A DNA stretch of 64,000 bases from Mesodorylaimus sp. YZB2_4. Its lineage: Eukaryota > Nematoda > Enoplea > Dorylaimida > Dorylaimidae. The stretch covers positions 1,364,001-1,428,000 of the forward strand of contig JASANH010000938.1 in the NCBI GenBank assembly GCA_030248295.1, written 5' to 3'. Position numbers and translations under genes: made by a program. Below, in pieces: positions 423 through 51,200 of this stretch (the stretch's first letter is position 1; each line of letters begins with the position of its first letter). A model generated the notes under the pieces. The model saw only the letters and a list, made by a program, of their open reading frames with translations, was not told where the DNA came from and searched no databases.

Positions 423-3400
423 ATGGATATCGATCGAGAAGAATTTTATGAAGGTTTATTGCGATGGGTAAGACTTAAATAGTTTGTGATTTTGCAGTAG
501 AAAGTTTATGAAGCAAACCGATGAGAGGTTGGCGATAAGGATATGTAGTGTTGCTTCAGGAATATCGTGCAAATTATGGTGACTTTGCAGATTTCATCGT
601 TGAACCCGAACTCATCTCCTCCGTCGTTGCAGTGGATGCTCACGGGGAAGCCCATGGCCGAAGCTTTGGTTCACTTGTATGTAACGACATTCGTTATTGT
701 AACTCTAGCCTACATTGTTCTGATCGACATTGCATTCTTATTCGTAGAGTGCCAGAGTTCTTTGACGACGATTGGGTCGAAAAGACGTGCAGCGGCATCG
801 ATGATCAAAGTAATTGGCGAGTCAAGGCCAACGGCCTGAAGAAACTTTTGAAACCAATTTTGCAATATTACAATCAACTGACTGGTCAGCCCGTTTCGGA
901 AGAGCATATTCCTGATGTTATGGTTGCGGGTAAATTCTATATTCTGGCCGTTGGTCACTCGAATTAAAAATCATGTCTAAATTTTTAGCACGGGATGAAA
1001 ACAAGGCGGAATTAGCAAAAATGTTGCAACTGATCTTGGCGCTGGCCGTAAACGGATCGAAGCGACAAGGTGGGTGTTGCTGGGGAAGATTTAGAGTGTA
1101 TGGAACACTGCAAGCAAATATTGCTGGAAAGGGTCACGCAAGGGTGCCAGTTCGACGCAACCTTACACACGAATTACCATTTTCAGATACCATTGAACAC
1201 CTGATAAAAGCTGAAGAATCTGTTCAACATATCGTAATGATGTCTATTCAGGAGGTAATATTGTCATTGGCAGTGCCTTGGTCTCTTGATTATCACACCG
1301 CCTCGAGTTTCAGCTCGAAGAACGAAAACGCTCAGGAAGTAAACCAGCGGATCCTCACGCTGCGACTGATGAAAGCTTTGAAGCAAAGGCAAGTGTTTGA
1401 ACTAACAATAATCTCTCCATTTTTAGCACGTTGCCACAATTTTAGCTGAAGCAGACTCTGCTCGAATTGGAAGTATCTCGGGAAAACAACGATGAACTTA
1501 CCCGCCGCTGTCACGAATTGGATCAGCAAGTGGACTCACTTCAGGACGAAAAACGGTTATTAATGACCGAGAATGAGCGTTTGTCCGTGAAGCTAGCTTC
1601 CAGCGAGTCTTCCGATGAGTACGAGAATTACAACTGGCATTTTGGCTTTTTTTTAGCGCGTCAACTTTTTTGTAGGGCCGATAAATCAAAACGTGTACAA
1701 AATCTACAACAACAGAATGAGCGACTTCGCGAAGATTTGTTTCGTATGGAAAGTGGTAAGTGCGTGACATTGGTCGATGTCGCAGAAATGTAGACGCTCT
1801 TTCTTTTAGCTCTTGCCGATGCCAAAGCCAAAATGGATGCGCTGGCGCGCCAAAATAAAGAATTGCAAACCCGAGTGAGTATTTTGTAAATGTTTTCTTT
1901 TTTGACAGCATGCATGCATGTATGCTTCTTGTTGCAGACTGACGAATTAGCTGGAAATGATGCCGAGTACATCAAACTGAAAGATGAGGTTGATGAACTG
2001 CGTGGCAAATTAGTCGAAGCGAAGAAATTAGAATCGACTGTGGAAATGTACAAAAGGAAATTCGGTATGAGTTCGGGTCACAGTATTGATTTTATCGTCC
2101 TAAAATGCAATTTTTTGTTTCAGAGGAAATGAACGATATGCGACTTCAAATGAAAATTCTTCAAGATAAAAATGAATCGTATATGAAATGTGCAATCGAA
2201 GTGGATGAGGTGAGATGATGTTTGGGGTGGGCATTGATTGGGGAGCACGTCTCCTAGCTCCCAGCACACAAAAACATCGGCTTGTTCTGTCGTAGGAACG
2301 TCGACGAAACGGCGCTTTGAAGACCCAATTGGAAGCTTACAAGCGTCAAGCGCAAGAATTAGAGTCGAAGTTGGCGGAAGAGACCAAACGAGCCGATAAA
2401 ATGGATTTTGAGTATCGCCGCAATAAGGAGAAACTGGACGCCTTGCAGCAAGAACGAGATCGGCTAATGCTGGAAAAAGACGAGCTGAAGCAATTGAAAG
2501 AGGAGATAAAGCTGACGCAATATCAAGCCGCCTCTCGTAAGTCAGCAATTTTGGGCGTTTTGAGGGTGATTATTTATGACTTCTCATTTTTAGCTGTTCA
2601 AAACGAGCTGATGACCGGCAGTGAAAATACGCCAGCCACCACCTTGCCAGCAAACGTGACTGATCTGAGGTGAGTTGGGGGAGAAGGTCCAGCATGCAGG
2701 AGATGGAAGGAAGTATTTTGTAGGGAGCAGCTACTCAAGTTGGAACAAGAGAATCGAGTGCTGAAAGCGGCCCATGTCGAGTCGAAGGTGAATGAAGCGG
2801 AGCTGTTGAATAGTCAGCTGGAGGATTCGAACAGGCGAAAACATGAATTGGAGACGGAGCTGAGGTAAGATTTGACTGGTAGTTTTCGTTTTATAAAGAC
2901 ATGAAATGGTTTGGTTTAGGATCGCTAATAAAAAGGTTATCGAGCTGGAGGCCACGCTCTCGGACATTCGAGAAACTGAACTGGAAGGCGGAGGTGGATC
3001 CGGAGATGCGCGAATCGTCGATCTGCATCGGCAATCCGAATATCACAGTATGGAAGCTCAGAAAGCTAAGCAGAGGCTGGCCGAACTCGAAAAGCAGTTC
3101 GCGGAGAAAGGTAGGGGTTGTCTTGTTGGATGGACTTGCGACATTCGATAGTTGCTTTTTATTTAGAACAAAAGTCGAAGAATTTGGAAATCCAGTTGCA
3201 AGTGAAAGAAGGAGAATTGAAACAGCAAGAAGCCAAGTATCAATCGTATCTGGCCAAAGCAAAAACGGTGATTGTGGGTTTTGAACAACCGGTGGGTGGA
3301 TCGAATATGGGATCGGGTTATTCGAGAGCCGAGTTTGATGCATTGCGGAGGCAGTTGCAAGAAAAAGAGAAGATCATTCAGCGAATGCAGGTATGTTCGG

Positions 3401-4069
3401 TTGGCAGGGGCACCTGAGACTCGATGGGACTGTAAAGGCGAATTAATTCAGATCGGTCCTTTTTTTCAGGAGGACCAAGAAAAAATGCGCATAATGAAGG
3501 AACAAGAAGAGAGGTTGATTACTACAGCATTCCACGATCAAGTAATCGGCCTCGCTTGTTTAGCATGAATTTCCGCAGTCGAAACCCTGCTGTTTTAGGC
3601 TATGCAATTGCACAAGCGGGCGGTTGACGAGCGATTGATGGGCGGACAGAGTCCGGCCTCGTTTCTGGCTCGTCAAAGGCAAGTAACCAGTAAACGACCA
3701 GCGCAGGCGTATCAGGTGGCGGGCAATCGATAAGTGGCAATGGTGTCCAATGGAGCAATGGAGCATGTACACTAATCACTGTAGATGGATCCCATGGGCC
3801 TTACGCGGGAATGTAGCTTCAGTGTTGTGCACGGGGTGGTGGCTGTGGTGCCCATTGTTTGGGCTGGGCAATGCTTGCACTAACCTTAACCGCTTTTTGC
3901 ATTTAGGTCGGCCACTTTTTTCTCTGTGCTCTTTTTGCTAGTCCTAACGCTAGCTATCTACTTACTGTTAGCCTTGGAGGGCGGAAGTGTGTTGCCGATG
4001 GAGACTGTCAAGGACTTGATGTCTGGTTATGTTCATTTGCGTTATGTGAACGGGCCGCCACCGGTCTGA
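423..4069 (+). CDS. Hook-family microtubule/dynein adaptor, with an alternative KASH-type membrane tail
   Basis: Hook proteins link cargo to cytoplasmic dynein and microtubules. Exons read as 423-467, 591-676, 748-929, 989-1069, 1187-1254, 1314-1388, 1446-1618, 1676-1755 and further short exons to 3733 or 4069. Phases of the first eight agree throughout. The N-terminal ~150 residues match the Hook domain, with VSEEHIPDV and AEESVQHIVM as landmarks (close to VSEEHLPDV and LEESVQHVV of human Hooks). A long coiled coil follows. The end SFLARQRQVTSKR, stop at 3731-3733, resembles the Hook C-terminus (SFLAQQRH). If an intron is removed from a GC donor at 3679 to the acceptor ending at 3906, the frame instead runs into a membrane segment and KASH peptide, stop at 4067-4069. 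The start is the first in-frame ATG. Family assignment is strong; the balance of the two ends is inference. Confidence 0.9.
3907..4069 (+). other. alternative last exon of Hook encoding a transmembrane span and KASH peptide
   Basis: The exon follows a strong 3' splice site (CTAAC-like branch site, pyrimidine-rich run, TTTAG at 3902-3906). Joined to the codon split at 3677-3678 it reads about 21 hydrophobic residues (TFFSVLFLLVLTLAIYLLLA and neighbours) and then 30 residues ending LRYVNGPPPV and stop. Nesprin KASH domains have the same build: a membrane span and about 30 luminal residues ending in LRYTNGPPP plus one residue, which bind SUN proteins in the perinuclear space. The luminal cysteine that disulphide-links many nesprins to SUN is absent. 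The donor is GC (AG then GCAAGT), a good GC-AG consensus. No GT donor nearby gives the right phase. Confidence 0.8.
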
Positions 4070-4306
4070 GCAGTGTACAGTTTTGGCACGTTGTAATGCT
4101 GGTCGATATTTCTACTCCTATTCCCGTTTGTATTTTGTATTGTATTGTTTTCTGGTTCAGTAAACCTTGACAGGGCTGGGGAGTGCGGATTGGTGATAAC
4201 GGTGGCCAGGCCGTATTGTACTTGTGGCTGTGGAATGTGCGAAGGTGACTGCTTGGATTTTAGGAATCGTCATTTTTGAGATTTGGTTCAAGTTGCGAGT
4301 GCGAAA

Positions 4307-4543
4307 ATGAGTTCGGCCTTGGGAACCATTTACAAAACTATGTTCAAACGCACGCCGGCCATTGTGGTGACCGTGGTCGTGTCGGCCTTCTTTTTCGAGC
4401 GAGCCGTTGATCAAGCTTGCGATGCCTACTTTGATAAGAGGAACGAAGGGGTGAGTGGGTCCGAGGGGGGGCACCACTAAAATCAGTTGCGTTTATTTCA
4501 GAAATTATGGAAGGACGTGAAGAAGCGATTGCAGCTGGAATAG
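4307..4543 (+). CDS. UQCR10: cytochrome bc1 complex subunit 9/10 (UQCR10, QCR9)
   Basis: Small single-span subunit of mitochondrial respiratory complex III in the inner membrane. Two exons, 4307-4450 and 4502-4543, join in phase 0 to give 61 residues, close to the 63 of the human protein. The N-terminus contains YKTMFKRTPAIVVTV, a hydrophobic span with SAFFFERAVD, then a charged tail ending WKDVKKRLQLE; the FFFERAVD-type motif and length are typical of this family. The start lies only 238 bases after the stop of the Hook-KASH exon on the same strand. There is no targeting presequence, as usual for this subunit. Confidence 0.87.
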
Positions 4544-4818: not shown

Positions 4819-6155
4819 TCACACCACCTCCTCGTAGGCGATCGGAGCGAGCCACTGAGGTTCGTTCTTCCTCGTCTTGACCGTGTGAGCCTTGCGTGGT
4901 CCTTCCGGCTGAAAGAGAAATGGGCGGATGAGGAACAATCTTGAATCGCCAAGTAGAATGATTCTAAATGCAGCCCACAGAATATATATTCTGTGCCTGC
5001 ACTTGAATTTTGAACAATCAACAACGAAATCTTACCACTCGTTTCAACGAAATCCGCGTTCCACTTTGTTTCGCCGCCTTTCGTTTCGTCTCGTTTTCAT
5101 GGACGCGTTTCAAAAAATCCAAACGGCATTTGCTTGGTTTAATGTGTTCGATACGGACGTTGATTCGCTTTGGAATAATTCGAGTTCTACAAGGATTAGG
5201 ATGGGAAAATTTTGATTCCCTTATTCGCTTTCGCAAAGGACAACCATATTAGGCCAAGAACTCTTATTAACTTACCGAACGCGCTTGTTAACAATAACAC
5301 CAACGGCGTGTTTCGTTACGTTGAAAACTCGACCAGTCTTTCCGTGGTAGAATTTATGCGGCATACCTTTTTGGAAAGCGCCATTGCCCTAAACAGAGGA
5401 CGAATTAATATTCACAGAACTACATCAAATCATCTCAGTCTACAGTAAATATTTTCAACCGCACTTTATTTCCAATTCCTCATGCTCAAGCAATCAGGGC
5501 AGACTTTGTCACTTTCCTATTATGTATTCCATGGAGTAAACCTATGCTCTAGGGAACATTTCAAAATTTAGCGGTTTGCATCATTGCCTTCCTCCTCGTT
5601 GAAACTTATGAGGTTGCTGCCACTTTTTTTCACCATACTCATCATAAATGCCTCGTCAGTGGTTAGGTAGCCATATTACACCCCACAGCTCTCTTGGGCG
5701 TGTCCAGTATTGACGATCGCTTTCTGCAAGCACGAACCTGCAGGCGGGTGGCAGAATACGTGTTGTACACTGGCCAGTAGGCCCAGCGGCCAAATGCTTA
5801 CACGCCGGAAAGGTTCCTTCAAAGTACAGACTCACCTGTTCTGGTGGAACAGGTCAGTCTGTAGCCTACTGGCACCCTACGTAGGCCAACATTCAAGGTA
5901 GATACTTTACACTCCGTAACTTCTACGCGTAAATTCTGACTTTGTACAGACATAACATGCAATCTTGAATTTGATGCTCAGTAATGCCCTAGATCGCACG
6001 GATTGTCATCATGCACATCGTCTTACCTTGATATCAACAATGTCTCCGCGTTTGTAAACTCGCAAAAATGTAGACAATGGTTCCACGCCGTGATGACGAA
6101 AGGCCTTCGAGAATAAATGGCGAGTACCGCGACGATAACCCTTTGGATTCACCAT
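4819..6155 (-). CDS. RPL21: 60S ribosomal protein L21 (eL21)
   Basis: Structural protein of the large cytosolic ribosomal subunit. Four exons on the minus strand: 6027-6155, 5276-5388, 5036-5186 and 4819-4908. They total 483 bases, giving 160 residues, the same length as human RPL21. Landmarks in order are [53 protein letters not shown] [24 protein letters not shown] and the C-terminus [11 protein letters not shown]. All phases agree, and the start is the only ATG that begins the conserved N-terminus. Intron 1 is long for this gene (5389-6026, about 640 bases); I looked for box C/D snoRNA signals in it and found no convincing pair. Confidence 0.95.
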
Positions 6156-6747
6156 TTTTTATTTTGACTAACTGTTACAACTAAGCGAAAACAAATATCT
6201 TCAAAGGAAAGAACAAAATTGTCTGCGACGATTCGCAAAAACGAAAAAATCGGTCCTGCGCACATATGGGATCATGGACCATTTCATACTGCGTTTTATG
6301 ATTCGCAGGTTCCATGATTCCGGGGAATTTGAACCATATTTTCCTGAATTCTTCAATTTCGCAAAGAATATTCGCCATTTTTAACGGCGATATTTTATTC
6401 CACCATACGGCATCGTACACGAACACGGAAAATAAATATCTCCGTTAAAACGTTCTATCAAACCACAGACCGTCACAAAATCGCCCAAACGCAGGAATAG
6501 AAAGCGTGAAAAAAGAATTTTTACATAAAATGTACAATCATTTTCGAAACCAGGAGGAGTAAAACTTAAAAATGCATTTTCATATTAGTCATCATAAATA
6601 TGCATAAAAACGGATTACATTAGGATGACTCCCCCAAACAGTGGCATATCGGGACCCAGCTCCTTTTTTTGTCCTAGCACCCCGCAAGATCGTTGAACAC
6701 AAACCGAACTAAAAAGAAAACCACTGAAAACCTGCACAAAACTTTTC
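6156..6747. other. gap between RPL21 and FBXW7, no gene seen
   Basis: Holds the RPL21 upstream region (minus strand, so the promoter lies just above 6155) and, at its upper end, the FBXW7 3' UTR. AT-rich near 6530-6620. No coding exon is visible. Confidence 0.5.
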
Positions 6748-9700
6748 TCACGGATAGTCGGCGTTGAAATCGAGAACCAGTAATTTCGTGTCTTCGGTAC
6801 CATTGCGCGACCCGACAGCGCAAAGCAGCATGGTGGGTGTTGCCCGTAATCGCCATATGCAACCACCCGCCCCGCAACTGGGCAGCCGAACCACGTCCCG
6901 GAGGAATAGCCCTGCAATGCAAACTCTGCCAGATTGTTGCCAGCAGATGCTCGTCCACCCCGATGTAACCAGCTTCGCACACTCGGCCCAAAGTCAGTCC
7001 TCCACTCACCTGTCAAAGCGTCCCAAAGTTTTACGGATCCGTCATCGGACGACGAAACGACCAAACCATTTTGAAGAAATTGCAAACTCGTGACGGCCGA
7101 TTGATGCCGATGGGCGCCGGCCAAAGTGTGCAGACATTGGCCATTGCTAATATCCCAGACTTTGATGGTCGAATCGGCGTTGCCGCTGACCAGAATATTG
7201 CCGCGAAGTTGCATACCGGATGTCAACGACTGGTGGCCCACCAACGTGTACAAGCACTGGCCACTCGCTATGTCCCACACCCGGATCGAAGTGTCCAACG
7301 ATCCGGAAACGATTATGTTCCTGTCGCTATCGAACTGAAAACCAGAACGGTCGGGGATTCCACATGATCAAAAAAATTTACAGCATTTTTATCCGCATAA
7401 GGTAGCCGCAAGAGTGCGCTCAACCGAAGGGTATGATTGGAACCTGGAGCCTGAACAGCACTTACCTGCAATGAATAGACTCGATTGGTGTGCCCCTCCA
7501 ACGTGTGCAAGCACGTCTCCTTTTCCACATCCCATACTTTCACCGCACAATCATAGGCGCCCGAAACAGCGCGCCGACCATCAAACTGCACACATCGGAC
7601 GGCTGCCAAATGACCAGTCAATACGTGCAGGCATTCGCCCGTACGAATATCCCACACGCGTAAAGTGGCATCGCGACTTCCGCTAACGAGTCTGCAAAGG
7701 AAAATCGAACACGATTAATGCCCATCACTCGGCTATTCCAAGACAATCTGGGCAGCGAGCGGCTATAAAAAACGACGTCTATTAAGGTAGGTGGTCTAAT
7801 AATAAAGCTGATTCGGCAGAATCGTCAATGACTACAATGCCGCATATATCTCTTAAAAATAGCCCCTCTCGTCGAGCTGGTTTCGAAGAATAGCTCTTCT
7901 ACACGCACCTAACTCCAGCGGGGACACAAAGTGCACCCGATGGCAAACATTTCATAGCAAGGTAAAAGAGCCCTTTCTAAAATGTTTACTCACATATCGC
8001 CTCGCAGTGCCATGCATCTAACCGTCGACGTGTGGCCGAAGAACGTGCGTAAACACGCGCCCGTATGCATATCCCATACTTTGACCGTACGGTCGGTCGA
8101 ACCGCTAATAACTAAATCGCCCTCGTCGCTTATCTGACTCGACCACACTCCGCCCGTATGACCAGTCATCGTTACTAGATTCTAAAACCAAGATAAACAA
8201 TGCATTCGACGAGACCCGTGGGAGACTGATAAGATGCAAGTAGATCCTGACTCAGCAAAGCTATTCGCCCCCCTCCGCTACCACCAGTGACCCTGGACAC
8301 ATGTTCAGAGTGACTCACGCATCCGCTGGAAGCTGACCACACTTTCAAAGTATTATCATCGGAACCGCTAACGATCTTGTCGCCGCATATTTGAAGACAA
8401 GTAATGACGTGATCGTCGTGACCTCGCAACACTAATTCTCGACGTGGCGTACCGCGGCGCCAATTCATCTCAACTCGACTGTGACGCAAGTAAACCGATT
8501 TCCACGCGCACCGATTGAAACACGGCGACGCGGCGGGACTGCCGCTGGGCGGCAATGGTAACGAATCCGGACAAACACCTTCCTCCAGGCATTTCTCTCG
8601 CCACAGTATCACGTCTTCGGTCAATGTGCGCCAATAGCGACACACCAGAGCGGCGTTCAACAATTCAGTGGGCTCCAAATACGACAAAACGTGCAGAGAT
8701 AGCTGAAACAGGCAAACAGTTGCCACCAATTACAATATTCTGATCGGGGCATAAAAATTGTCAAATTTCTCATCGTAAAAAAAGTTTTGTCTTACCTCTT
8801 TCGGAAGCAACGAAATGAAGTCACGACGGAAGTATGGTTCGATAGTTTTGTGCATGTGACGAATATTGTTCAAACTACAATTTGGTATCAGCGCGGTCAA
8901 AGCTTGCAACTTCTCGCATTCACTCCAATTCTAAAACAAATCCATCAATAGATATATGAGAATTTTTCAGAGGAAAGTAAGCATACCATGAACGTAGAAA
9001 CCCACTCCGTTATTTCCGGTGACACAAATGGGCTTTGTCCACTTTTGGCATCGCTTATCAAAGAAACGGGAGAGGCCGGAATGTCGATACAAGTTTCCAA
9101 CAAACCTTCGTCGCATTCTTCGTATTCGACTTCATCAACACTAACATAAGAAATAATGTTATTCGCGACGATGAATTAGCAAATCCAGCAGCCTGTACGT
9201 CAGTCAAGCCACACCGCAGTTCTGCTCTAATACTAAACCTTCATGTAACGAATTTCCGTGGGATTCTATTGGGTAAGGCAGGCAAAATCTTCTCCATTGA
9301 AATTCCATCATTTTAATCACTCTCTAGTGCCTGTTTACAAGTACGCATCTTGACTACAGGAAAAAACTAAAACGGAAACCCAGTGTACCCTAAATGACTT
9401 ACCACATAGCCGATGCCCCGCAAGACGAATGACACTGTTTTTTCCCCATCGACGGAATTTGGTCGCTATCGGATTTGCGTTTTATCTAAAAAATACAAAC
9501 TAAAAACACCAGCTATGTAAAAGTTAAAAGTGAAACGTTACTTTGCATTTCGAAACCGTAGTCGCAGATGCCTTCCCGCCTAGGATTGGTGTGATTCGGT
9601 TACTATTTACGTGAAAAGCGCACATCACCGGTGACAAGCGAGCAGACACGGCGCCCGACGAAGACGTAGCGGCGCATGGAGAAAATTTGCTGTTGAACGT

Positions 9701-30799: not shown

Positions 30800-33700
30800 T
30801 CATATTTTGATCTCTAATTCAGACTCTGATTTCCTGCAGTCCCTTTGCGAATAGGGTGACGGCCCTTGGCCAAATCGAGCAGGCTCGGAGATGGCATAGG
30901 GACCTGCAAAGTTAGGTTCATCTGGTGAAGCGAAACTGGTGGGTGCCCATGTACTCGGACTCCGATCCATGGACCCCGTCTGCCCGTACGCATCAGCCGA
31001 TCCAATGACGCGTATGGAATTTGGCACGTGCCGTGGTAAGGATCGTTCGTGGCCTGGGTCCGAGACTGGTTCATGCCCACCATTGGTCAATTGTTCTTTG
31101 CGTCTTCTCAGGGTGTCCTGATCGCTCTTGATTTTTGCAATCTCCGAAAATACTTGAGTCAAAGGTTGATAAGAAGGACCCCAGTTGGGCAGAGGCACCG
31201 GCCAGCTTGTACGTGGCGACAGAATGGCTTCGTTGGTCGCATTAGCCGAGGCATAGTAGTCCATAGAATTGTCTGCCAGCGATGGATCGATGGAGCTGTC
31301 CCTGTCCACTGGTTCTGCCCCCTCGTTCTCACTAGCCAACACTTCGTTAACTTTGGAATATATAAGGTCCTGTACATCCACCGCTTCCTCGTCCTCCCTG
31401 TCCCTCCCAACGTGCTCGTACTCGGCTGGTTGGTATTCATTCCTCAAGTTACCGCCCACTGCTCCATGAGAAAACTCACGATCAGTTTCCCCTCCGTGCC
31501 GTCTTATTGTGCCATTGGTCTTGACCGACGGTGCTTCCACTCCCAGACTGGTCAGGTATTCTTGGGTACTTGGTAGGCCATCAGCCGACGTCACAGACGC
31601 GTTATCATCACCGTACAAATTGAGTCCCGAGTCGGGCGCTGGGGCAAATTGTTGCCGACTGGATGCCCTGCCACTGGCCGAGGTCTTGCCACCATCTGTG
31701 TCCTCAGCCAAAGACCCTCGACCGCTCGACTTGGTCGATGTGTTACATACGGTAGTGCCGGAGAGATGCACCTGGCCACTGGTAACAGTCATCCTCAGTG
31801 ATCCGTGCCCATTCGCATCAGTCACGTGGAATCCCGCCGCCGCTCTCGACGCTGCTTTTGGACAGGGCTGGATGACGTCATTGGTTTTGAGTAGTTGACG
31901 GTTTTTCCTGTTCTTGGCCGACTGTTTGGCCAAGACCACTTTGTGCACCATGGACGGCTTGTGATCTCGACGGCGTCGCTTGACTGCGACCAAGACCAGA
32001 ATAAAAATTAGCAGTACAATCAGGCCAACTGATATGCTGATGATAGTACTGGCGGGAGCAAAATAGTTCTGAGCTGATTTTGTGAATCTTCCGACTTGAA
32101 TTTCTATAGTCGTCGAGTTAGACTTGCCCGAGATGGCATCAGTTCCCGAGTATGCAATGACCGTCAGGAAAACACTTTTCACGTCTTTCAACGGTCCCGA
32201 AGGCGCACCGTCCTCATGACTGCCTGCCTTAGACTTGGTTGGTTCTTGTAAATCGGTCAAAGACCTGGCCACGCTCATCACTCCTGTCTGTGGATGGATA
32301 CGGAAATAAGGAGTGATATCTTTGATGAGGTAAGTGATCTTGCCATCTACGCCCGAATCGCGATCAGTGGCATATACTGCCCCGAGTATTTCGCCCTCGC
32401 TGGCGTCATATGAAGTTTGAAAAACGAATGCGTGTTGTGTGAAGGCAGGGGCATACTCGTCGATTCCTTTGACCAGTATCTGAGCACTGGTATTGGCCCA
32501 TCGGCCAGTTGCGTCCGACACGACCACTGTCAGTCGATAAAATGTCTTCTGCTCATAATCGAGCACTGCGGCCGTCCTCACTTCACCACTGGCAGAGTCC
32601 ATACTGAAGTAGCCCCCATCATTGCCACTGGCGATTGCGTAAGTAAAGTTAGTCATGGCTTTTGAGCCGGATGCAGTAGCGCCCTTGACTTTGAGTACCA
32701 ACGTGCCGATCGGTGCGTTCTCTGATATCCATCCGATGTATCTCTGCACGGGGAATATGGGCGCGCTGGTATTCTCCCTCTCAATCTGCACCAGCAGACC
32801 AGCGATCGAAGTATGAGGAGGCTCGCCTCCGTCCGATGCCCTCACAATCAATCTCAGCTCACTATTAGCGATACCGATTATCGACTTCCTCAGTGCCACT
32901 GCTCCCGTCTGAGGATCGAGGGCGATCGAGTTGTCAAAATCACCCGACATCAACTCATAGCTAACACTGCCATTTACACCAGCGTCGCGATCCACTGCGT
33001 TCAACTTCATGATGACCAATCCGGGCATCAATGACTCTCTGACACCGATTTGATATTCGTTCTGGTCGAACACTGGCCAATTGTCGTTGACATCTTCTAC
33101 CTGTATCAGGACTCGAGTACTGGCGTTAGCCACAGCATTGGTCTTGGTTTGTAATACCACTTCCAAACTGTACATGTCCACGGTTTCTCGATCCAATCGC
33201 TTCATCAGGATCATGTTCCCATCCGAGTCCACGCTGAACGTCTGATTAGCATCACCAGATCGGACAAGGTAGCGTAAATGTTTTGAGGCTCCATCAGGCG
33301 CCGTTGTTGTCAAGCGACCCACAATACTGTGCACTGGTGCGTCCTCGGATACAGTAAAGCTGAAACAAGGCGCGTCAGAGTGGAGATCAGCGGGGAATAT
33401 GTAGGACTGTCAAAGTTTTATCAGGGTTATGGCTGCCCAATAGTCTTCCCTACCTGTATGATTTCGATCCAAACTCGATTTGCTGCTCGTTAACGTATCC
33501 CATTTGTATTTGGACTGTGGTGACGGCGACCCGAGATGGCTGACCACCGTCCACAGCAGACACTGTCAACTGGATGATTGGAGGAAAATTGGTACGGTTG
33601 GCCAAGGTTTGATTTAGGACTATTTCTCCTGAAATACAAGAATTCCATTGCTGCACATCTGCGAGAAGGTTTAGGTATTCTGACACTGAGAGCTGGGACG

Positions 33701-36700
33701 CAATAGAGACCACGATGCATGCCTGAGATGGTTGTACGACCTCAATTTTTTCGTACTGTACTTACCACTTTGAGCATCGATCCAGAATCCTGCCCCTTCG
33801 GGTGCAGTACCCATTAGCGCATAGTGAATTCGACCATTCGGCCCGCTGTCCGCATCCGTAGCCGAGACGCGAACAACGGATGTGCCAGCTCGTGCGCCCA
33901 GGGCCAAGGCGGCTTGGTAAAATGGCTGAGAGAAGATGGGCGAGTTGTCATTCTCGTCAAGAATTATGATTTTCTGGCGTGTAGAAGTCACGTAGACACT
34001 GTCTGAGACCTAAGAGTAGAACAAAGGTACGGCCAGCAATAAAGAAAGGAATGACCCGAGCCTACCTGCACTTCCAAATCTGCCTCGCGCTCTTTCTCGT
34101 AATCTAGCTTCTTCGCCAGGACTAATCTACCAGAAAATCGATCGAGATTGAAGTAATCGATACTAGTGTTATTCGAGGCCAAAGAATAGACCAGGGGAGG
34201 GAACGTGTCCACGTCGTTGGCAGTCATGATGGTCAGCAAAGAGCCAACTTCTGTGTCTGAAAATGGGAGAGGATCGTCATGAAGGCAGCCTTTCTAGAAA
34301 ACTTGGCAACAAAAACTTGCTTTCGCTGATTTTGATTGGACGAACGTAAGGGAATGACGGACTGTTGTCATTGACGTCCATCACCAGTACGTCGATGACT
34401 GCGGTGCCTGACTTGGGAGGAGAGCCAGCATCGACAGCCATCACAGTCAGAGTATAGCGGTCATGGATTTCTCGATCTGCAAAGAGAGTTGTGGGTCAGG
34501 AATGCAAAAAGAAAAACAGACTGGACTGTTCGAGGAAACTACAGCGTTAACACAGCAAAAAAATACAGAAAATACAGCAATAACACATTCCTACAGTGGC
34601 TGCCTACGACAAGCCATCATGCGCAACCTCTAGAAGTGTCCTTACCCAACTCTGCGTTTGTCTTCACCACACCGCCATTGTCGACCACGAATGCGGAATC
34701 GACATTGCCCGACACTATGCTGTATGTGAGCGCTGCATTCTCTCCGATGTCCCCGTCCGTCGCAGATACCTGCAGAAAAAAATGAATTTCATATTTCACT
34801 GCACCACCGATTAAACAGAGCCTTACCTGGATAACGAAAGTATTCTTGGGCTTGCCCTCGGACACAGCCGCGCTGTAACTTTGCTGTAAGAACTGAGGAG
34901 CATGGTCATTGGCGTCGACGACTTCCACTCGCACAGTTACGTATGCTCGCTGCAGATCGAAGCCGCTGGCTAATTGTGAGTTTCTCGACTTGGCTGTGGC
35001 CTCGATGATCAGCTGATATGCCTTGGTGGTCTCATAATCCAAACGTGATGAGTCGGTGATGACGAGCGTACCTGGAAGGAAAACATGTAGCACTGCAGAT
35101 TCAAGTTTGGATCACACTGCAACTTTGATCTACCTCGATTCGAATCGATGAAAAATGTGCCACTTTCATTCCCACTAATGATCCTGTATTGCATGGATGA
35201 GGTGGCTGACGACGAACTGGCCTGCACGTCCAGGATCCGAGCACCAGACAGGACGTCCTCAGGCACCTGAACTTTGTAAGCAGGCCGCGAAAACTTGATG
35301 GCCGATCTGCGGTAGGCCTCTTCTGATGAATCGACAACAACTTCTACGACCGACGTGCTGGATTTGGGTGGCTCACCATGGTCACTGGCCACCACGTTCA
35401 AATACTCGACTGTCCCCGAAGACAATTGCAGGTTCTGCTTAGCACTAATCACGCCTGTGGTAGGGTTGATGACGAAACGGTCATCGCCATTGGAAAGGCT
35501 GCAACAGACGAGCTGTACCTCGAGGAACTACTTATCAGGTAAGGTGAAATACCTGTACGAAACATCAGAATTGGGACCAGGCCCATCGGAGTCAGTTGCC
35601 ACAACCTTCACCAGCCGTTGTCCAGCGGCCATGCTGGAGGATACGTTGGCGATGAAAGGCACGTTGGGGAATGTGGGAGCGTTGTCGTTCACGTCCAAGA
35701 TTTGAACAGTTACACGCACCGTATCCCATTTGGATTCTGAGGGTCCTTGATCGTAGGCTTTTACCAGGAATGAATACGAGTTTTCTTTTTCAAAATCAAG
35801 TTTTCTGAAACATAACATACGAACATGCAACTGCCTGTTGCATGTACAGCATGCAAAGAGTTAGGGTCAGATCTGACTAGAGGCATGACTAATAGTACGC
35901 GACATAGAGTAAGAAAAGAATATCTAGCATTAAAGGCTTCTAGCGTAGAGCACAGTAGGAACTTACCCAAGCACCACAATCTCCCCCGTATTCGCCCCGA
36001 CATCAAATAGGCCGGCAGTCTCGTTGGCAATGCTGTACATGACCTTGCCATTCAATCCTTGGTCGGCGTCTGTGGCTACGATCTTCAATATTGTTGTGCC
36101 AGAAGGACTATTCTCTAAGATCTGGGCTGAGTAACTGGACTGTTCGAAGCGGGGTGTGTTGTCGTTCACGTCCAGAACACTAATAGGCAGGGTACACTAA
36201 AAAGAAACGGCTATTGTTAGATCAGATAACAGGATTCGGGCCTTGTCATGGTCCTTGTAAGCAAAAAGGTTGACGCATTCATTTTCAAAGAAAAGTCATA
36301 CCTGCGCACTCTGGCTGGGCGATCCATTGTCACGGACTTGTAGTGTGAGATTGTAGCCAGGCATGGTCTCTCTGTCGAGGGCATCGCACGCTATCTCGCC
36401 TGAATCAGGATTGATTCTGAATTTCCCATCGATATTACCTCCTAAAATGGGCACAGCAAACATGCTGTATATAACCGTTGTTCCTTCTGACAAATATGGG
36501 TAAGGTTTTGAAATGGTGATCATGAGTGACTTGAAAACGGCGCGATGATTATGAATCATATATTTGTCACTAGATTAGCAGAGAGCAGAGTCCAAAACAG
36601 ATTTCAATCATTATCAGGAATTGCAGAGGACTAGCATAAACTGCAAATTTATGCAGAAGCTATTCGATGAGTCCGCAACTCGGTTCACCGCTTGCATATT

Positions 36701-39700
36701 TTGAATCAACGAAAAACCCTATCGGGAGAAAGAGGCAATCTGGAAAGCCAAGGATCGGAGGATGTAATTCCTTAATCTCTCCTTTCATATGAACTCGATA
36801 TTAGTGCAATGACAGCGGCAGCACAGCACATACCCACAATAGCATAGCTTAGCCGACCATTCGTTCCCGAGTCCCGATCGCTGGCTATAATTGTATGGAA
36901 GACATCGAATGGTTGATTTTCAGGTAACGACTGCTCCCTGCAAGTTGCTTCCCCAATCAGAGGCGCGTTATCGTTGGTGTCCTCCACGTTTACAATCACT
37001 GTGGCCGCGTCGTATCGTGCCGAGTAGGGTGAATCACGGACATAGACTAAAAGGCAAAACAATGACATCACTGGTGACATGCCGCTCACACTTTGATCTG
37101 ACAAAGCTATATCGCATTCGTCTGCACCAGCACTACGAGTCAATACACTGAAGCGATTTGGTAAAGCAAAGAGGCACCTTCGAAAATCGGTCACCTTGCC
37201 ACCAACATTTGGAAGACATCATTTGCATGTTTCTCAAAAGGGTTACTTTCCATTTGTCCACTCGAATGGACTCGACTAGAGAAAGTGAGAAAAAGACTGT
37301 ATTGCTCAGTTTACACGGGGACATAGCCTGATGAACTATTGCTAGTAAATACACTAGCGTCACAACTGCGGCGTATGCACAAGTATTGTAGTGTTCCTGT
37401 GAATCTTGTCACTTGCTGATAACACCTTTGTCAAAGCTCGCTTTGCATTGCAATCTCCAGTCAATGCAGTAGGTCACTAAAGATGCCCTACGCAGTGCGG
37501 ATCATCTTCATTCCAGATGCTCCCTTTCCCCTCCTCGATGGCCGTATATGGTCGCATTCCACGTCAAAGAAAACACCGTAAATATTACCTGTCAAGACAT
37601 ATTCATCCGTTTCCTCTCGGTCCAACGGTGCTGTCGTCAATAAAGTGCCCGTCTTTTCGTTCATGCGGAATTTATTGTCGGCAGTACCATTCGGTAAGAT
37701 GTACACTAACTCCTTGACATTGCCTATGGCAAGAATAAGAAAAGGCACTTAAGTTGATGGCGCGGGAGGCCACTCCATTCAAAACAGTACATTAAACTTG
37801 GGCGACCACTCGATAAATCGGTGAGATAAAAAGTTCATATTCATTCCCAGAATCCGAGGATGCGTTTAAAGTGCTTATGCAGTCTATTCTAATCTATCCA
37901 AACCATCGAGGTCGAAACTAAGAAATGTGCAGTGTTCAACATGGAAAAGGCGTCAAGACCAGATAACGATCACCGTGTTTGGGATGCCGTGATGGCAGGC
38001 TGTCATCTTTTCCGGGTGGGTGCAGTACGTACAGTATGGTATGAGGAGGACGGAATCAATGACCAGATGACGCGCGTGACTGGGTGCCTACGCGACGAAA
38101 TGACACCTACTCATAAGGTAAGTGATGGGTCGAATGAAGTGACCAGAAGAGATAAAGGTGTGTTCAAAGTGATGGACACAGTGTCATGTGAAGACACCCT
38201 ATGAGGAAAGTGACAAGTTGCACACAGTGGTGAAAAGGAAAGACGCTCAAAAGCACGGAAATAATACTATGGTATGATCAAGGCAACGAGGCAGGGCTAC
38301 CAAACGAGGAAAAGTTGGCCCTTCCTTCACAGATCTGTTGACACAGACATGCTGTACTCACTTCCGTCAGGACTTAGCGCCCTTAGTTGAGCCACCACGA
38401 CTCCTACGGGTCCATTTTCGGTCACGTTCACCCTGTAGACGGACTGTTCGAACCGCAGGGTGTAGTCGTCGGTGTCCAGCACTTGAAGCGTCAGGACTTG
38501 GGAAGCGGTACGTTGCGGGACACCGTGATCCTCGGCCACAATAGTCAAGCGGTACTCACGAGCACCGTCTTCTCGCTTTAGCGGCTTCGAAAGTATGAGG
38601 GCTCCTGAAGCGGGCGGGTATTGGAGTAAGGAGAGACAGGTATCGACGGTAGAAGTTTATTATGCGACTCAACTACGTCAGCTGCAATGCTTACCAGAGG
38701 TAGAGTTCAATTGAAATTGGGTCCCTTCATTCCCTGATGCTATTCTGTACGTTACACGTCCATTTTCTAACCAATCGTCGTCCACTGCAGCCACATAAAT
38801 CGAGGGATACCCCACGGGCTCATCAACGAACGCATAGGCGCGATCACGGCTGAGAAATTTAGGATCGCAGTCGTTAACGTCCGTGACATAGATTCGCTGA
38901 AATGACAGAATAGGGGGTAAGAAAGCATAAAGAAAACAGGGGATGCAAAAAACAAAAGAAACTTGGGCGGACTCCTACAATGCTTAGGAGCCATGTCAGG
39001 GATACTACTAGTACAGTGAACACCAGAACAAAATCATTTGCACCAAGCCAAACGCCAGGGGTTGATCCGCGCATCTCTGTACTCTAGCATCTGGAACGCA
39101 AGCGAAACCCTAGCCTCTAAAAGTGGCGTAGATCCTTCGAAGCATGAAAAATGACTCATTTGCTCAACGAGGTTTCAGCCTGCCACGCTCATTCCTGCCA
39201 AAGCAGTTGTGCTCACCGGGTACTTCCCTGAACTGTTCCATCTCGCTCACACATCTAGGCCCTACTTACCGTCGTCACCCGTCCGGCTCTCCTCTGAGTA
39301 GCATTTGGCGCTTGATCGCTCGCTTCGACCACCAGCAAGTACTCGGCCACACGTTCGAAGTCCAGCTCCTTCTTGAGGAAGAGTTCTCCGCTCACACCGT
39401 CCAAATAGAAGATGCCCTTTTCGTTGGGGTACTGTTCCAGGATCTTGTACTCGACGCGCCCAAAACTGCCCGTGTCACCGTCCGTGGCGTTGTATTGCCA
39501 AATGACGAAACCTGCTCGATTCTCTGGCACGGAGAATATAATCGGGTCCTCGTGGAATGTGGGAGTGTTGTCATTTTCGTCCCAAACCAATACCTTCACC
39601 CGAATCTCAGTCCCGCCTGGACTCGACGCCAATCTTGACTGACCCATTTTGTTGACTACGAGGAAGTGAGCACTGCTGACTTCGTAGTCCAACTGGCGAA

Positions 39701-42700
39701 CCAAGTAGAGCATGCTGGTCACCCGATCGATATCGAACAAGCCCTGGCTGTTGCCGGAGATGATCTCGTACGAGTGAGTCACCGTGTCAGCATCAGTCAA
39801 TGAATTAATATCAGCGTCGGCCAGAGGTCTTTGCGGGTCAACCGACCCTACACGATACCCAACAGGAGCTGATTCAGAGACTTGAAAGACAATAGACTCG
39901 TTGTTGGATCCTCCTCCGTCGTCCACGTCCACCAAGTCGATGATGAAAGTCCTTCGAGAGCTTCTAGGCGGCTTGCCCAAATCCTCGGCCACCACGGATA
40001 TCTCGTACCGTCGGGGCCCTTTCTCGTAGTCTAGCACTTCGGTCGATGTGAGAACACCGGTCGATGCGTCAATGCTGAACGGTAAGGGGGCATCGCTTGT
40101 CACTTCTAAGTAATACCTCACTGTACCGTTCTCTCCGTCATCAGGGTCACTGGCACGAATTTGAGCCACTTCGCTGCCCTTGGGTTGCTCCTCGCGGAAA
40201 TAGAGGCGATCGCGAAGAGGCAAGACGAAGAAGGGCGCCTGGTCATTTTCGTCTAGGACGGTCACTCTGAGTAAGCAGACTGAGGAGAGTGGCGGTCGTC
40301 CTTTGTCACTGGCCGTGATGACCAAATCGTAGATGGGTTCGTTCTCACGATCCAAGGTCACTTCCGTGAACAGCTCTCCGGTGGGTGTCAATCGGAAATG
40401 TGATGGTGATGAATGGCTCGTCGCGCTCAGGGCGTACACAACAGTTCCATTCTCTTCTTCGTCCGGATCGTCGGCTCGGATACGACCCACCAAAGTGCCC
40501 GCTGGTCGATTCTCAGCGATCGATAGTTGCTGTATCGATCGGCAGTCGGGCGGATGGTCATTTACGTCACTGATGTGAATAATCAGGGGCACAGTCGTAG
40601 ACCTCGATGGCTGACCGTTGTCCTTAGCCACGGCTGTTAGCGCGTATTCCTGTTTGGTCTCCCGATCTAGCAGCTGTCGGACATAGACCCAACCACTGTC
40701 GGCAAATACACGGAACGGAAGCACTTCTCCAGGAACCGCCTCCAGCCTGTACGTGATTTGCCCATTTACCCCGCTGTCATCGTCCGCGGCCTGTAGTTGA
40801 ATAATTCGAGTCATGGGCGCCGCGTCTTCGGGCACTACTGCTCTATACTGTCCCAATGCAAACCTCGGCTCGTGGTCGTTCACATCCAAAACATCTATCT
40901 CCAGAGTCATATTGTCTGCTAGTGTGGGGATGCCCCCGTCCTGGGCAACGATGACCAAGGTATAGTTCCTTTGTTTCTCGTAGTCTAACGGCTGAGTCAG
41001 TCGGATTTCTCCCGTGATCGGATGCACCATGAAGGAATTACCTGGGTTCGCCATCAGGCGGTACCGAACCTCGCCGTTCTTGCCTCCGTCTCTGTCACTA
41101 GCGTAGCAGACGAATAGGGTCTTTTGCAATGGCTGGTCTTCGGGCACAGTAGTCTTTACAAATCGTCTTTCGAAAATTGGTCGGTTGTCATTGACGTCTT
41201 CGATTATCACTTCGACCTGAGTGTGATTAAAGGCTGGTGGGTGATCAATGGTCGCTTGTATGTTCAAAAGGACCGTTTTCTGAGCCTCGTAATCCAAATA
41301 TCGAACGATCGATATCGATCCACTTTGATGATCAATCGAAAAATTCTCGGTAGGATCACCCGAATAGATAGTAAAGCTCACTGCAGCCCCTCCCGCTGCA
41401 CTAGCTCGCACTGATCCAATGGCAATACCAGGCAGAGTGTCTTCCCGGACTGTGAACCTGTACAGTTTCTGGTCGAACTGCGGGCTCGGATAGTCTTCGG
41501 TGGATACGATCACGGTGACAAAGGCAGGCTGCACTGAGGTCAAACCTCCACCGTCCATGGCGTGGATGGCCAACTGATAGATGGTGAGGGACAACCTTTG
41601 ATCAACGAACAATTCGCCTGAAATTACTGGAATTAGCACAAGGAGGAGCGTGGGACAAAGGTCATCGAGGTTTGGCTATGAGGTGCAAAATTGGTTTGCG
41701 CATCGCAGATGTGGTAGCGAATGAATCAATCGTTTCATGCAGTGGGGACAGCCCATCGAGTTCTACCCACTCCAAGTCGTTCATGGGCTCTGCGAGTACT
41801 TCACCTGTTTTCTTATCCACTCGAAACATTCTTGCGTCGTTTCCACTCGCGATGGCATACGTAACTTCTCCGAACAGTCCTTCATCCGCATCACTGGCTG
41901 ATAAAACCAAAATCTGAGCCCCGGGCTGCGTATCGCGGCGTGCAGTTACATTGTAGGCACTGGGATAAAAGACAGGTGCATTGTCATTTACGTCCTCCAC
42001 GCCCAATATAATCATGGTCGATCCGAAGAGGCCACCTAAAAACGTAAAGAAATTCAATATTGACAGAAGTACAGTTAATGAAGCCGATTCCATTTTGGGG
42101 GATTCCAGCCAAATCGAGTTTTCACTGACTGATTATCCCTGGCACGTGCGGGATTGGTGAATTTCATTTGGGTAGCCATGCTCATTCAATATTTTGTCAA
42201 GGCGCTAAGCGGAAGATAATTGCTAATTAACCCGCATCTTAAACGAGCCGATCTCGGTCGACACTCGAGCCGACCACATTTCGCGCCTCAGCGCTTCCGG
42301 TGCTTGGCACGGCCATAATACGGAAACGGAATCCGGGCCTCGTCGACAATACAACCCGAGCTAGATCCGAAATCATCTTTTCCCAATTCTCATTCTTCAA
42401 GCACTGCCTTTCTTGAACACACTCCACACCGAACAAATGATTCGTAATTGACGAACACGGAGAGTGTCTGCCAACGGAACACCCAATTTCCCCTCCATTC
42501 TAGGGACGGCTACTCGACTAAGCCCACCCTCTTGTGTACGTACCCCCGTCATAAGCCAGCACCGGGAACTGATAGTTCCTGCGAAGTTCGTAATCCAATT
42601 TCGAGGCCAGGCACACGTTGCCACTGCTTTGGTCCACTTTGAATGGATACGCGTTGTCCGAGGCATCGGGAGATAACTTGTAGTGAATTTGTGCGTTTAC

Positions 42701-45700
42701 ACCACAATCAGGGTCGTTGGCTTGGACCTGAAATCAAGAACAACGTGACAGGGTTGTGTCTTTGGGCTGGGTACGTGCAGCAGCCGTCGGGTAGTGAATG
42801 AGGACCACAACACCACACCACAAGCTGTACAGCTCCTATGCGTTTCTCTGCTATAATACTGTATGGGTGGCCTCCAGCGGCTACAGTAAACTAAGCAAAC
42901 TTTTCAGGAGTATTGTTATATGACGCATGCTCGTTGCATGACTCACTGGCCTCATGCATGCCAAAATGAAGCCTTAACAAAGAAAAAGACCAAGACAGGG
43001 TTTTAGCCTACGTGTCGTACAGAGTACCTTTTCTTTGCTTTGCATCTTTGCTGGCTATTCATACTGTACTTCAATCCCCACTGTTTCGCACGTCTTTAGC
43101 TTCCTTCCTTTGCTCTTCTCAGAAAAATAAAGGCAAGAAGCTTCACAAAATCTATGCAAAAACTTAGCATCTAGGCTCTCGTTTCGAAGGTTGCCATGGC
43201 GAAGGGTTGGGTGAGCTACTAATCGAAAAGCTAATGAACGATCTGAAACAGAATGTCGAAGCAGCCATCTGACTTGTACTCATTCCTGAGGGAGACTGGC
43301 CGAATAAATTATCCACCTGCCTCTGTCCAGACAGAGCTAGCTGGCTGACTAAGTCTTGTTGCTTAGCGACACCGACGCGAACTCGTCTCTGCTACAATGA
43401 AAGGGGCATAAATATGGGGCTAGAAGAGAAAACTCTGTCCTGGTTGTCCTCTTCTTCAAAAAGTAATTTGAAGCAGCAATCGAAGGCCGCTTCTGTAGAG
43501 AACGAACTGCTACTGTCCGTGCTTCACCTCTTCAAACCACACTCCTGCTTGCCATTAAAACTCTACCAAACCCGACAATGTCCCTGAAGGCCCTGCCTCT
43601 CGTCTTTCTGAACATGGGTGGTGAAATGTGCTACATTCTGGACCAACGCCTACAAGCACAAAATGTTCGAAAGGAGAAGGCCGTGCGTGTCATGAACGAC
43701 ATTTGCTCGACCATGTTCAATGCCAAGTTCTTGGACGAATTGTTCAAACCGCAAGAGCAATACAGTAAGCGAGCCATGCGGACCCTCTTCGACAAACTGG
43801 CCCATTCTAGTATTATGCGTCTGAATACGACCAGCATGGACAAGCTCTACGACCTCATGACTATGGCCGTCAAATATCAACTACAAGCATGCACGGCGCC
43901 CACCGACCTGCTACTCTTGACCATGAACCATTTGGACGGCATACGCAAGTTGGTCCAAGGCTCCCCAAATGTCCAATCGCAAATCGATCACGCTTACAAA
44001 TTACTCAGCCAAACTTTCTTTCGCATGAACACCTTCGAATTGCACATTGTCCGACAGACCTTGGTCAACTTCTATCAAGATGCCCGAGTCAAAGTGAGCA
44101 TTTTGCTGAGAGAGAAGTTGCAACGCGACGACGGTCGGTTCGTGATCCCGACCACGTGCAAGATCGGATTCGGTGTGCAGCCATCGGGGATCATCAAAGT
44201 GTTCGCGGGCGGAGTGGCCACTAAGACCGTGGCGTTCAGTTCTGGTGGCACCTACACAGAAATCCCCAAAGCTGGCTCGTTGGAAGTTACGGCCAAAGCG
44301 GGCGAGCGTGTGACCGAGCTTGGAACCAATATGTACAAGAATCAAGGAGCTGATACTCAAGGTGGATACGGATCATCCTACAACACAACTGCGGCACCTT
44401 CTGCCGCTGGTGCGGGAGCAGGTGGTGGTGCACAGGCTGTGAATGCCCCGTCAAAGGAGACGCTGGCCAAGGAGGAGTTGAACCTGCTCGGCCTGCTCGT
44501 CAAACCAAACGAGGCTGGCGGCGAAGGTGATTTCGCGCTCAGCTTATTCGAAAGTGCTCAAGACGAAGAAGCTTTTGTGGCGGCTGCTATCGAGGCTATC
44601 AAAACGTACGAAACGATCATGATCGATGCCTCGAATCGGGACACAAGTGCCGTGGACAAGTTAGTGGGCGATATGTCAAAGGCGTCCACCAAACCTAAGA
44701 AGGCCAAAGGCGATGAATTGCTCGACCTGATGGACGGAAAATGATGTTTCACCACAGAGATATGAGCACTAAATTTGCACCCACGGAAGTCTGTGAAAGT
44801 GGTTTTTGTGGGTGATACGTGTGTCATGTCGTGGATGTTCTATACGCGGTCGTAGTCACCTCACAATAGAATCTACTGGACTGAACAATGGGTGAGCGAA
44901 TGCAGAATCTTTGTGTCGTGGAAACCCGATGCCGATAAGCCCGTGATTACTGGGCATTTATTTTTGCCCCTGCATACTCGACCCCATTTCTTTAATGCTC
45001 GACTGATCCGACGAGGTCGAACCGAGTCGACGGTGCTTACGGGTCAACGGGAGTCTGAAGTGACCTCGACGATGCCATTCACGCATCCTCGATTGCCCTT
45101 GCACGATCAACTTATATTCACTAAAGCTGACTTAAAAGCAAAAGTTTCGATTTCAAGCTCGTAAACGAGTGTTTTCTACATTTTATCCCCAATACACGTC
45201 CAAGTCCAAGTGGAATGCGGCATGGTTTACTCACTGCCGAAAGCCGTTTCACACCGTTTCTGGCTAGGTTTGTTTTCGAAAAAGGCGTCTTGTTTGAAAG
45301 TAGGTTTACACGGTCCGCGTGGAAACGGGCGGCTGACTCCTTTCTTAACTTCAATAAGTACCAGCCGAGTTTTGTTTACGATCGAGTCTAAAGGGAACTA
45401 AGGGACCTGCCAAAGAATAGGATTGCTTTACTCAACAGCCTCAAAACTTGACTCGAAAGTCGTTCGAGTGTGCAAGGGCGATAAACGAATTTCGAGTCCC
45501 TCGATTCGCTTTTTCGTTCATGTTCTGATTTCATCTTTCCTTCAAGCTGCACTACTGGGAGAACTTTTTCGAAGCAAAACATCAGCGTTGAAATGAGCGG
45601 GTAGACAGGCTTCATTTAAGTCCTTTTTCGAACGGTCCCTGCACGGGTACTTCTTGGGGAGGGGGTGAGGGAGTGAGAGTTTTCATCGAATTTCGGCCTG

Positions 45701-48278: not shown

Positions 48279-51200
48279 TTTACTTTTTTGGTAGAGGAAT
48301 CAACGTTGAGACCCTGAAAAGTGAAGTGGATTGGGATCATGGATGTCGTATTGGCAAAGCGAAGACGCCTCAGATTGGCCCAGCCGAGCTGCTTTCACAA
48401 CACAGCCTTTCCTTCAGTCTATGACTTAGCTGGTGACTTGAGAGCCTGAAAAAAATTAGGGGCTCGCTGAAGCAGCGGTGTTGAAGAGGCCACATGCGAG
48501 GAAGTACGAGAATGCAAATCAGGAAGAGTCTCTCCAAGACAATGGAAGTACCTGTTTCCCCTTCTGGAGCGGTATCCATAATTATTTGCATACCCGATGT
48601 AACAGACCATGCAGTGTGTCCAGGTGCATGGGCTGAGCATAGTAACACCTGTCCGAATGCAATCATAGCAGATTGTAAACAGAGTCGTCTAATAGCACCC
48701 CATCCAATTTAGGCGAATCACACTGGAGCTTCTTGCCATTTCTACTTTTCGGTGGTTGAGCAGGATGCGAGAAGGCAAACAGGAATCAAAAAGACTTTTG
48801 TGCTCCTGCGGGCTCAGATGGAGACAAAGAGCGAATACAGCAGCTGCCCGTGTTCGTTGGAAGAATGGCCGGACAACATTGGCCAAACTGGGCCACCCTT
48901 CCTGACTCACGTCAGACTGGCCAAATATGGGCGCTTTTTTGCACGTGTGTACTCACCGTTTTTATAGAGCAATATTCTGGAATAGAGGGCTATGTTGTTG
49001 GCCTCGGAATGAAGCTGTTGGTTGAAACAATGCGGGCAGACATGGGATCAGTGTCCTGAGGTCGGTTAGTGTCCTGCCTCTCGCCACGGAGCCGCCTCGT
49101 CGAATATGGAGTACATAGTTTGGGCAACAACTACTGTAAGTTGAGAGTTTTTTGGCGATGAAAATAGCGTCAAAAGTAATTTCTATGGGCGCAACGGCGT
49201 TGTGAGTGCGAGGGCGGCTGTGGTGATATATTCTTCTCAAGGACACTTTGGGCAGTGACGACGAGTCGAAAATGGCAAAACATTCATGGCCGGGGATTTC
49301 GTAGTTCGAATAGCGAATGTGCCACTGCGCATTGTGAGGCAGTCGGGGGATAGGTCACTCGCTCGACGAGACACCCCGTACATTGAGAAAACAGGTAACG
49401 GCCGTGCGGACAACAAAAGCCGTCCGACCGAGAGAAACTGGTCGAGGTCTCCCCTGCCAAGAAATTCTCACGCGCCAAATGGCCCTGGCTCAAGAATAAA
49501 GACGGCCCATGGCCAGACTCCGCCTCTCTGCTTAGCAGGAATGCGTAATCGCAAATGGGCGGGCGCACGGATTAGCCACACCCTCGGGTTCGGCCACGGG
49601 ACAAGGTTAATTGAAGGAACCACCGGGCACGTGGGGACTGCATAGAGCAGTGAGGTCACGCTCCTGGATATCATTGATGAGATGAGGTGTCCTGGACAAT
49701 ATTCTGATTCGTGAAGTGAGTATTGTTTGATTGATCGTCCAATTACGCACCGACGAGATGCGTGGTTTCAATCGCTGATCGCGTTCACCGGCAGTCCACT
49801 CACCAATACTCATCCTTACTTTACTCAGGGGAATGATACACTTGGCACCTCTTTATTCATTCATTCCTTATCTCAAGCCCCAGAAGCCGGGTCTGTAAAA
49901 GTTTACATCTTGCCGCCGACGTATTCACACAAGGAGTTGTTTTGCCGCCATATTTCATGGAGCCATCCTTAAATTTACATGTATATCGATCTCACTGTCA
50001 CTGACCTCATTGTATTCTGTGCAATACATAGAAGTACAATAAAATCACCATATGGTAACTAAAAAATTTGGCAACAATGCGCCCTCAGTATATGCCATTT
50101 GCATATCTTTGAGAACCCCATTGATTGATATAGTGCTGGTCGAAATGATCCGTTTGAAAGTAACAAAGATCTCAAGGCCTAGTGGTGTGGCATGGCGCTC
50201 CATACGTATTGACGATGGAATAGGATCCTCATAACATCTGGCTGCTATAACGAAAATGTGTTTCTTTGCGTCCTGAGCAGCCAAAGCACACCTTTGATGG
50301 CAATTTCTACGCTATTCCATCAAAAGATAAACGACCTGTATCGCACTGAGTTTTACCAGCTCCTACACGGTTTATTGTAGCAATTCGATAAGCTTTTAAG
50401 AAAGCAGTTGGCTGGGAGAAATTACCGCAGTCAAAATGATAAATGTTGAAAAATACGTCTCACCAGTGCCTGAACGTTAATAGGAGAGGAGAAGGCTTAG
50501 GAAAACATGCTTCCTAGTAGGCCCACCCTGTTTGAAGGAAACACTGATCAGAAAATATTGATTTAAGCTAAAAACTAACGAATAGAGTAAGTTGTCACAC
50601 AAAATATCTTAGCCGTGGCCCAACATTCAACTTGTCCGATGATGTGAATGCAACGAAATGTGTGCTAGTAGTTTACAGCACTAAGTTTGTTCATCTTTTG
50701 AGGCAAACATGATCTGAGTTCAGATCGTTGAGAGACAGATCAGTTTTTGTGGTAAGATTGTTAATCTACTCTAATCGTAAGTAGTACGGAAGGACCCTTA
50801 AAATGTTTACCATTTTGGAGGATAAGCTCAATAAACTTCGATTTTATACCTTGTTGCGACATTCTTTTCAGAATCATCGAGCTTTTTGTCCCCATAACGT
50901 AAGACTAATTAGAGGTAAATAGTGATAAATCCTTCCTATCGGAAATGTAACTTAAAACTGTTTTTTTTGTCGACTTACTTGGCCGTTAATGAGGATTATC
51001 ATTGAAGTTTAAAGTTCCTCATTCTGTTATTTTAGCAAATTGCATTCTGCTACAGATCCAGAAAACTTTGAGGACTGCAAGTCTCTCCTGCGTTGCTAAT
51101 CCTAATGAATTTAAAAGGAGATAAGATTTCAATGTTATAACTTTAAATTTTTTTTTAATTTTAGCTTTTTAGCCATCTCCTAATTATACCCGCTGGCAAT

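Follow-up and report, generated by a model that had tools for sequence, protein, structure and literature searches.

The locus analysed here raises the question of whether one Hook gene can provide both an ordinary soluble Hook protein and a form that ends in a KASH domain. In the window, by which we mean the whole stretch of 64,000 nucleotides that was analysed, the gene model places the Hook coding region at positions 423 to 3678 of the forward strand, starting with an ATG at 423 and comprising 18 exons, common to both forms, and 17 introns of 54 to 123 bases. The encoded protein matches the Pfam families HOOK_N (E = 1e-34) and HOOK (E = 8.4e-113), both over the curated cut-offs. Exon 18 (3599 to 3678, forward strand), the final exon common to the two forms, ends in SFLARQR and aligns with human HOOK3 (PDB ID 8qat). 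When the genome was searched with the HOOK family profiles and the best candidates were scored, matches were found at seven places, six in this gene and one on contig C67 under the cut-off; among these candidates, no Hook gene other than the one in the window was found.

Two ends can be read downstream of exon 18. Removal of a 228-base GC-AG intron (3679 to 3906, forward strand; donor AAAG/GCAAGT) joins the Hook frame to a 163-base exon (3907 to 4069, forward strand) encoding a membrane span and a tail that ends in LRYVNGPPPV, and yields a 751-residue protein that finishes in ALEGGSVLPMETVKDLMSGYVHLRYVNGPPPV, with its stop at 4067 to 4069. When the intron is kept, exon 18 reads through into an extension (3679 to 3733, forward strand) encoding QVTSKRPAQAYQVAGNR and closed by a TAA at 3731 to 3733, and the protein has 715 residues. 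The preliminary description had claimed that cutting out 3679 to 3906 connects the Hook frame to a hydrophobic span and a tail of about 30 residues ending in LRYVNGPPPV. Direct reading finds these coordinates exact, and the Hook-KASH observation is confirmed. A possible poly(A) signal, AGTAAA, which we take to be a variant of this element, lies 90 bases 3' of the KASH stop (4159 to 4164, forward strand). The further claim, that a soluble Hook stopping at 3733 and a KASH Hook come from the same gene, also holds as the best reading of the open frames and splice sites: the sequence best supports a Hook adaptor with soluble and KASH ends from one gene, both of which would be produced as isoforms.

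The soluble end resembles that of other Hooks. Its last 142 residues align with human HOOK3 (8qat; E = 3.5e-21), identifying them as the conserved Hook C-terminal region. This alignment continues beyond the splice point, where HOOK3 SFLARQRQATSSRRS faces SFLARQRQVTSKRPA of the soluble form; therefore, it is the retained-intron form that has the canonical Hook terminus, to which the KASH exon provides an alternative. When the last 112 residues were used as a query against a protein collection that presumably includes few or no animal Hooks, none of the 198 candidates qualified as a relative at an E value of 10. The gene might instead yield the KASH form only, in which case the read-through to the stop at 3733 would represent precursor RNA from which the intron has yet to be removed, and the resemblance to HOOK3 beyond the splice point would be a relic. 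While the strong donor flanks of intron 3679-3906 would fit such a gene, the read-through end retains the HOOK3 residues RQRQ-T-S-R, as would be expected mainly if it were still translated, and C. elegans has kept a soluble form (PMC13224763), which makes a KASH-only gene quite improbable. The soluble protein could also arise through an early transcript end inside intron 3679-3906 rather than through retention of the whole intron. The protein product would be the same, and the intron is, at 228 bases, longer than the other 17 (54 to 123 bases), but neither AATAAA nor any of the few variants searched occurs between the stop at 3733 and position 3906, and the nearest signal, AGTAAA at 3689, lies upstream of that stop; we thus regard early ending as unlikely and keep intron retention as the preferred source of the soluble form.

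The splice sites of the intron, which begins with GCAAGT and finishes with TTTAG, are in keeping with those of the rest of the gene. Scored on a donor profile built from the gene's other 17 donors, which themselves range from 0.9 to 7.3, its donor flanks reach 7.1, a value somewhat flattered because the profile includes a GC donor with identical flanks. That donor, one of the 17, belongs to intron 1389-1445 (forward strand), which was set in the gene model to preserve the Hook frame; this second GC-AG intron suggests that GC donors may be in use in this Hook gene. The next-best GT or GC position in exon 18 and its extension from which the KASH frame is reached stop-free scores 1.4. Two GT donors were rejected: the one at 3708 also reaches the KASH frame but scores -3.2, and the one at 3682 is out of frame. 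As described in PMC2490688, alternatively spliced genes are enriched in GC donors, in C. elegans among others, and in let-2 intron 10 of that species, the C of the GC donor is essential for regulation. Beside this enrichment stands the poor conservation of GC-AG introns between nematodes given in the same source, in which 5 of 26 introns that are GC-AG in C. elegans are so in C. briggsae too (PMC2490688), and this counts against the best explanation.

Is the tail a KASH domain? The Pfam KASH profile aligns through its last residue (profile positions 7 to 58 of 58), with scores below the curated cut-off of 23 bits both for the tail alone (17.3 bits, E = 0.0058) and for the whole protein (14.4 bits, E = 0.046). 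A KASH profile search of the whole genome at an E value of 0.001 returned three other places and not exon 3907-4069. Because of these two results, we counted the sites at which GPPPX is followed by a stop across the 145-Mb genome, a survey that covers KASH ends carrying GPPP. There are 88 such sites, 65 with TAA or TGA and 23 with TAG, and all 88 were examined for a membrane span, defined as a 19-residue stretch with a mean hydropathy of at least 1.8 that ends 18 to 45 residues ahead of the stop. Such a span precedes only four of them, one on contig C51, two on contig C18, and exon 3907-4069, whose hydropathy of 2.82 is the highest of the four; none of the remaining 84 sites exceeds 1.34. Pfam identifies the three sites on C51 and C18 as KASH genes, with 89.5, 37.4, and 35.1 bits. 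A PDB search with the tail alone gave matches too weak for use (nesprin-2, E = 1.2; a pseudomurein peptidase, E = 0.18).

By hydropathy and direct reading, the Hook tail follows the KASH pattern of a membrane span, a tail, and PPPX as the final four residues. It has an aromatic residue at position -7 (Y) and L at -9; mutation of either position abolished SUN binding in vitro, and the aromatic at -7 matters in vivo for force transmission, as reported in PMC6527376. The tail has D at -17 in place of the large hydrophobic residue found in nesprins and other long KASH domains, and P at -23 in place of a cysteine, both positions being described as long-KASH features (PMC6527376). It had been remarked earlier that the luminal cysteine of nesprins is missing here; this is so, and the same absence is published for ZYG-12. 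Indeed, according to PMC6527376, ZYG-12, KASH5, and UNC-83 all lack the -23 cysteine and short KASH domains function without one, so that this residue is not required for a KASH domain. Like the Hook tail, the nesprin-like gene on C51 and the two KASH genes on C18 encode a membrane span followed by an NGPPPX or YGPPPX end; unlike it, they keep the -23 cysteine and score over the Pfam KASH cut-off. The two C18 genes are similar to each other and share a strand, with about 18.6 kb between them. The genome also holds six SUN domain matches, on four contigs.

The remaining question about this exon is whether it belongs to the Hook gene. Open from 3890 onwards, the KASH frame holds no ATG ahead of the span; it therefore needs coding sequence from an upstream exon, and no such exon is closer than Hook exon 18. 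The next gene seen on the same strand, a UQCR10/QCR9-like gene at 4307 to 4543 (forward strand; Pfam E = 1.6e-22), lies 237 bases past the KASH stop. Agreement of frame between exon 18 and exon 3907-4069 has, taken alone, a one-in-three chance of occurring, and four earlier Hook donors (676, 1618, 2669, and 2864) are likewise in frame with this exon. That the frame match may be luck, together with a Pfam KASH score under the cut-off, would suit an exon that is part of another KASH gene or a chance open frame. Such an origin is nonetheless extremely improbable given the genome-wide test for GPPPX plus span, in which the other three of the four positive sites are KASH genes, the missing ATG ahead of the span, and the position of the exon between Hook exon 18 and the UQCR10-like gene. 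We therefore continue to read 3907-4069 as the KASH exon of the Hook gene.

The meaning of this arrangement depends on the animal. The genome contains 133 matches to Col_cuticle_N, a family that we take to mark nematodes, with a best E value of 1.8e-19 and six matches on the contig of the window, C2. The animal is thus very probably a nematode. The ribosomal protein gene eL21 (about 4850 to 6158 of the window, reverse strand) is about equally similar to 9bh5 (107 of 160 residues identical), presumably C. elegans, and to 4v6w (108 of 158), presumably fly; for both eL21 and a uL3 exon, 9bh5 is the best PDB match by a narrow margin. The exact SL1 sequence is absent from the genome, as is any SL1-like 24-mer at up to three mismatches, and RF00198 has no match among the 50 of 31,302 candidates that were scored, in a search that gave no control match either. 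Noncanonical leaders of Trichinella spiralis are reportedly the subject of a separate study. Nematodes split into Chromadoria, Enoplia, and Dorylaimia, and canonical SL1 was not found in the expressed sequence tags of the dorylaimian T. spiralis described in PMC1657053. The best fit is a nematode remote from C. elegans. The preliminary description had reasoned that, in a lineage other than nematodes, a Hook-KASH fusion would be older or convergent. The lack of SL1 and RF00198 within these searches and an eL21 as near to fly as to C. elegans would agree with a host of that kind, but the 133 cuticle collagen matches, six of them on C2, argue against it, together with the narrowly best matches to 9bh5 and the zero genome matches to Chitin_bind_4 (in a search that found none in any control genome). 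A host outside the nematodes is therefore highly improbable, and the conditional very probably falls away.

With a nematode host, indicated by the cuticle collagens, the gene becomes the local zyg-12, a known kind of Hook-KASH gene. We consider it very likely that this is a nematode zyg-12/Hook gene that acquires a KASH end when 3679-3906 is spliced and an ordinary soluble Hook end when it is retained. The following pathway can be proposed. Splicing of the GC-AG intron, if it is used in the RNA, would give a protein ending in a membrane span and the KASH peptide. This form may reside in the outer nuclear membrane and bind a SUN protein, and its N-terminal Hook domain would recruit dynein-dynactin either to the nucleus or to chromosomes in meiosis. 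Were the intron kept, translation would halt at 3731 to 3733, and the resulting soluble Hook, of the ordinary type, would serve centrosomes or endosomes. Splicing of the GC-donor intron may thereby set whether Hook is nucleus-anchored or free.

The rest of the window and genome offered several further observations. F-box and WD40 frames at 6618 to 8729 (reverse strand) perhaps form a single FBXW7-like gene. Three long cadherin-repeat frames at 30803 to 48299 (reverse strand) may be one Fat-like gene, and an OSCP1 gene lies inside their span on the opposite strand (43467 to 44741, forward strand). On contig C73, at about 249000 to 257000, mitochondrial COX1 and ND4-like sequence forms an inverted repeat embedded in a nuclear contig, and inverted copies of other sequence, peptidase-like in appearance, flank it; the stretch either was inserted into the nuclear genome or is an artefact of assembly. 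Read for signs of the clade, it gave no usable one.

The gene looks real, and its kind has already been described in C. elegans as zyg-12. Its interest lies in finding the ZYG-12 design, with both ends readable, in a genome that is seemingly distant from C. elegans, as such an animal could trace the Hook-KASH gene back to near the nematode base. A canonical soluble Hook end and a KASH end behind one GC-AG intron could make the origin of this LINC-complex dynein adaptor datable. More tentatively, and with somewhat more doubt than confidence, we suggest that the animal belongs to a deep nematode branch outside Chromadoria, so that the Hook-KASH fusion and its two-ended design would date to the nematode base or earlier, and that a switch made of a single GC-donor intron over the canonical Hook terminus is ancestral to C. 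elegans zyg-12.

Among known systems, C. elegans zyg-12 is the closest. As described in PMC13224763, one locus gives a ZYG-12a of 736 residues that lacks a span, together with ZYG-12b (777 residues) and ZYG-12c (761 residues), each with a span and a KASH domain; ZYG-12b and c are in the outer nuclear membrane via SUN-1, ZYG-12a is at centrosomes, and KASH-less forms are at early endosomes. The same arrangement is given in PMC12539209, and a zyg-12 homologue is present in Diploscapter coronatus (PMC5483258). Like zyg-12, the present gene, as far as its sequence tells, is a single Hook gene with a soluble end and a C-terminal KASH end, its predicted proteins (715 and 751 residues) are of similar size, and the -23 cysteine is absent, as it is from ZYG-12 according to PMC6527376. 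Unlike ZYG-12, which that source describes as a short KASH protein, it has a tail of about 30 residues after the span that is nesprin-like at its very end. We call the gene this nematode's zyg-12 because its domain order, size, and two ends fit ZYG-12, a likeness of description rather than of sequence. It shares with human HOOK3 and other animal Hooks the HOOK_N and HOOK regions and a read-through end that aligns with HOOK3 (8qat), and differs from them by the membrane span of the KASH form, Hooks being described in PMC12539209 as typically without one. KASH5, finally, is an outer-nuclear-membrane, dynein-activating adaptor with a KASH end (PMC10071310) and no -23 cysteine (PMC6527376), features that the KASH form would share if it is anchored and engages dynein as predicted; KASH5 has N-terminal EF hands (PMC10071310), whereas the gene described here has a Hook domain.
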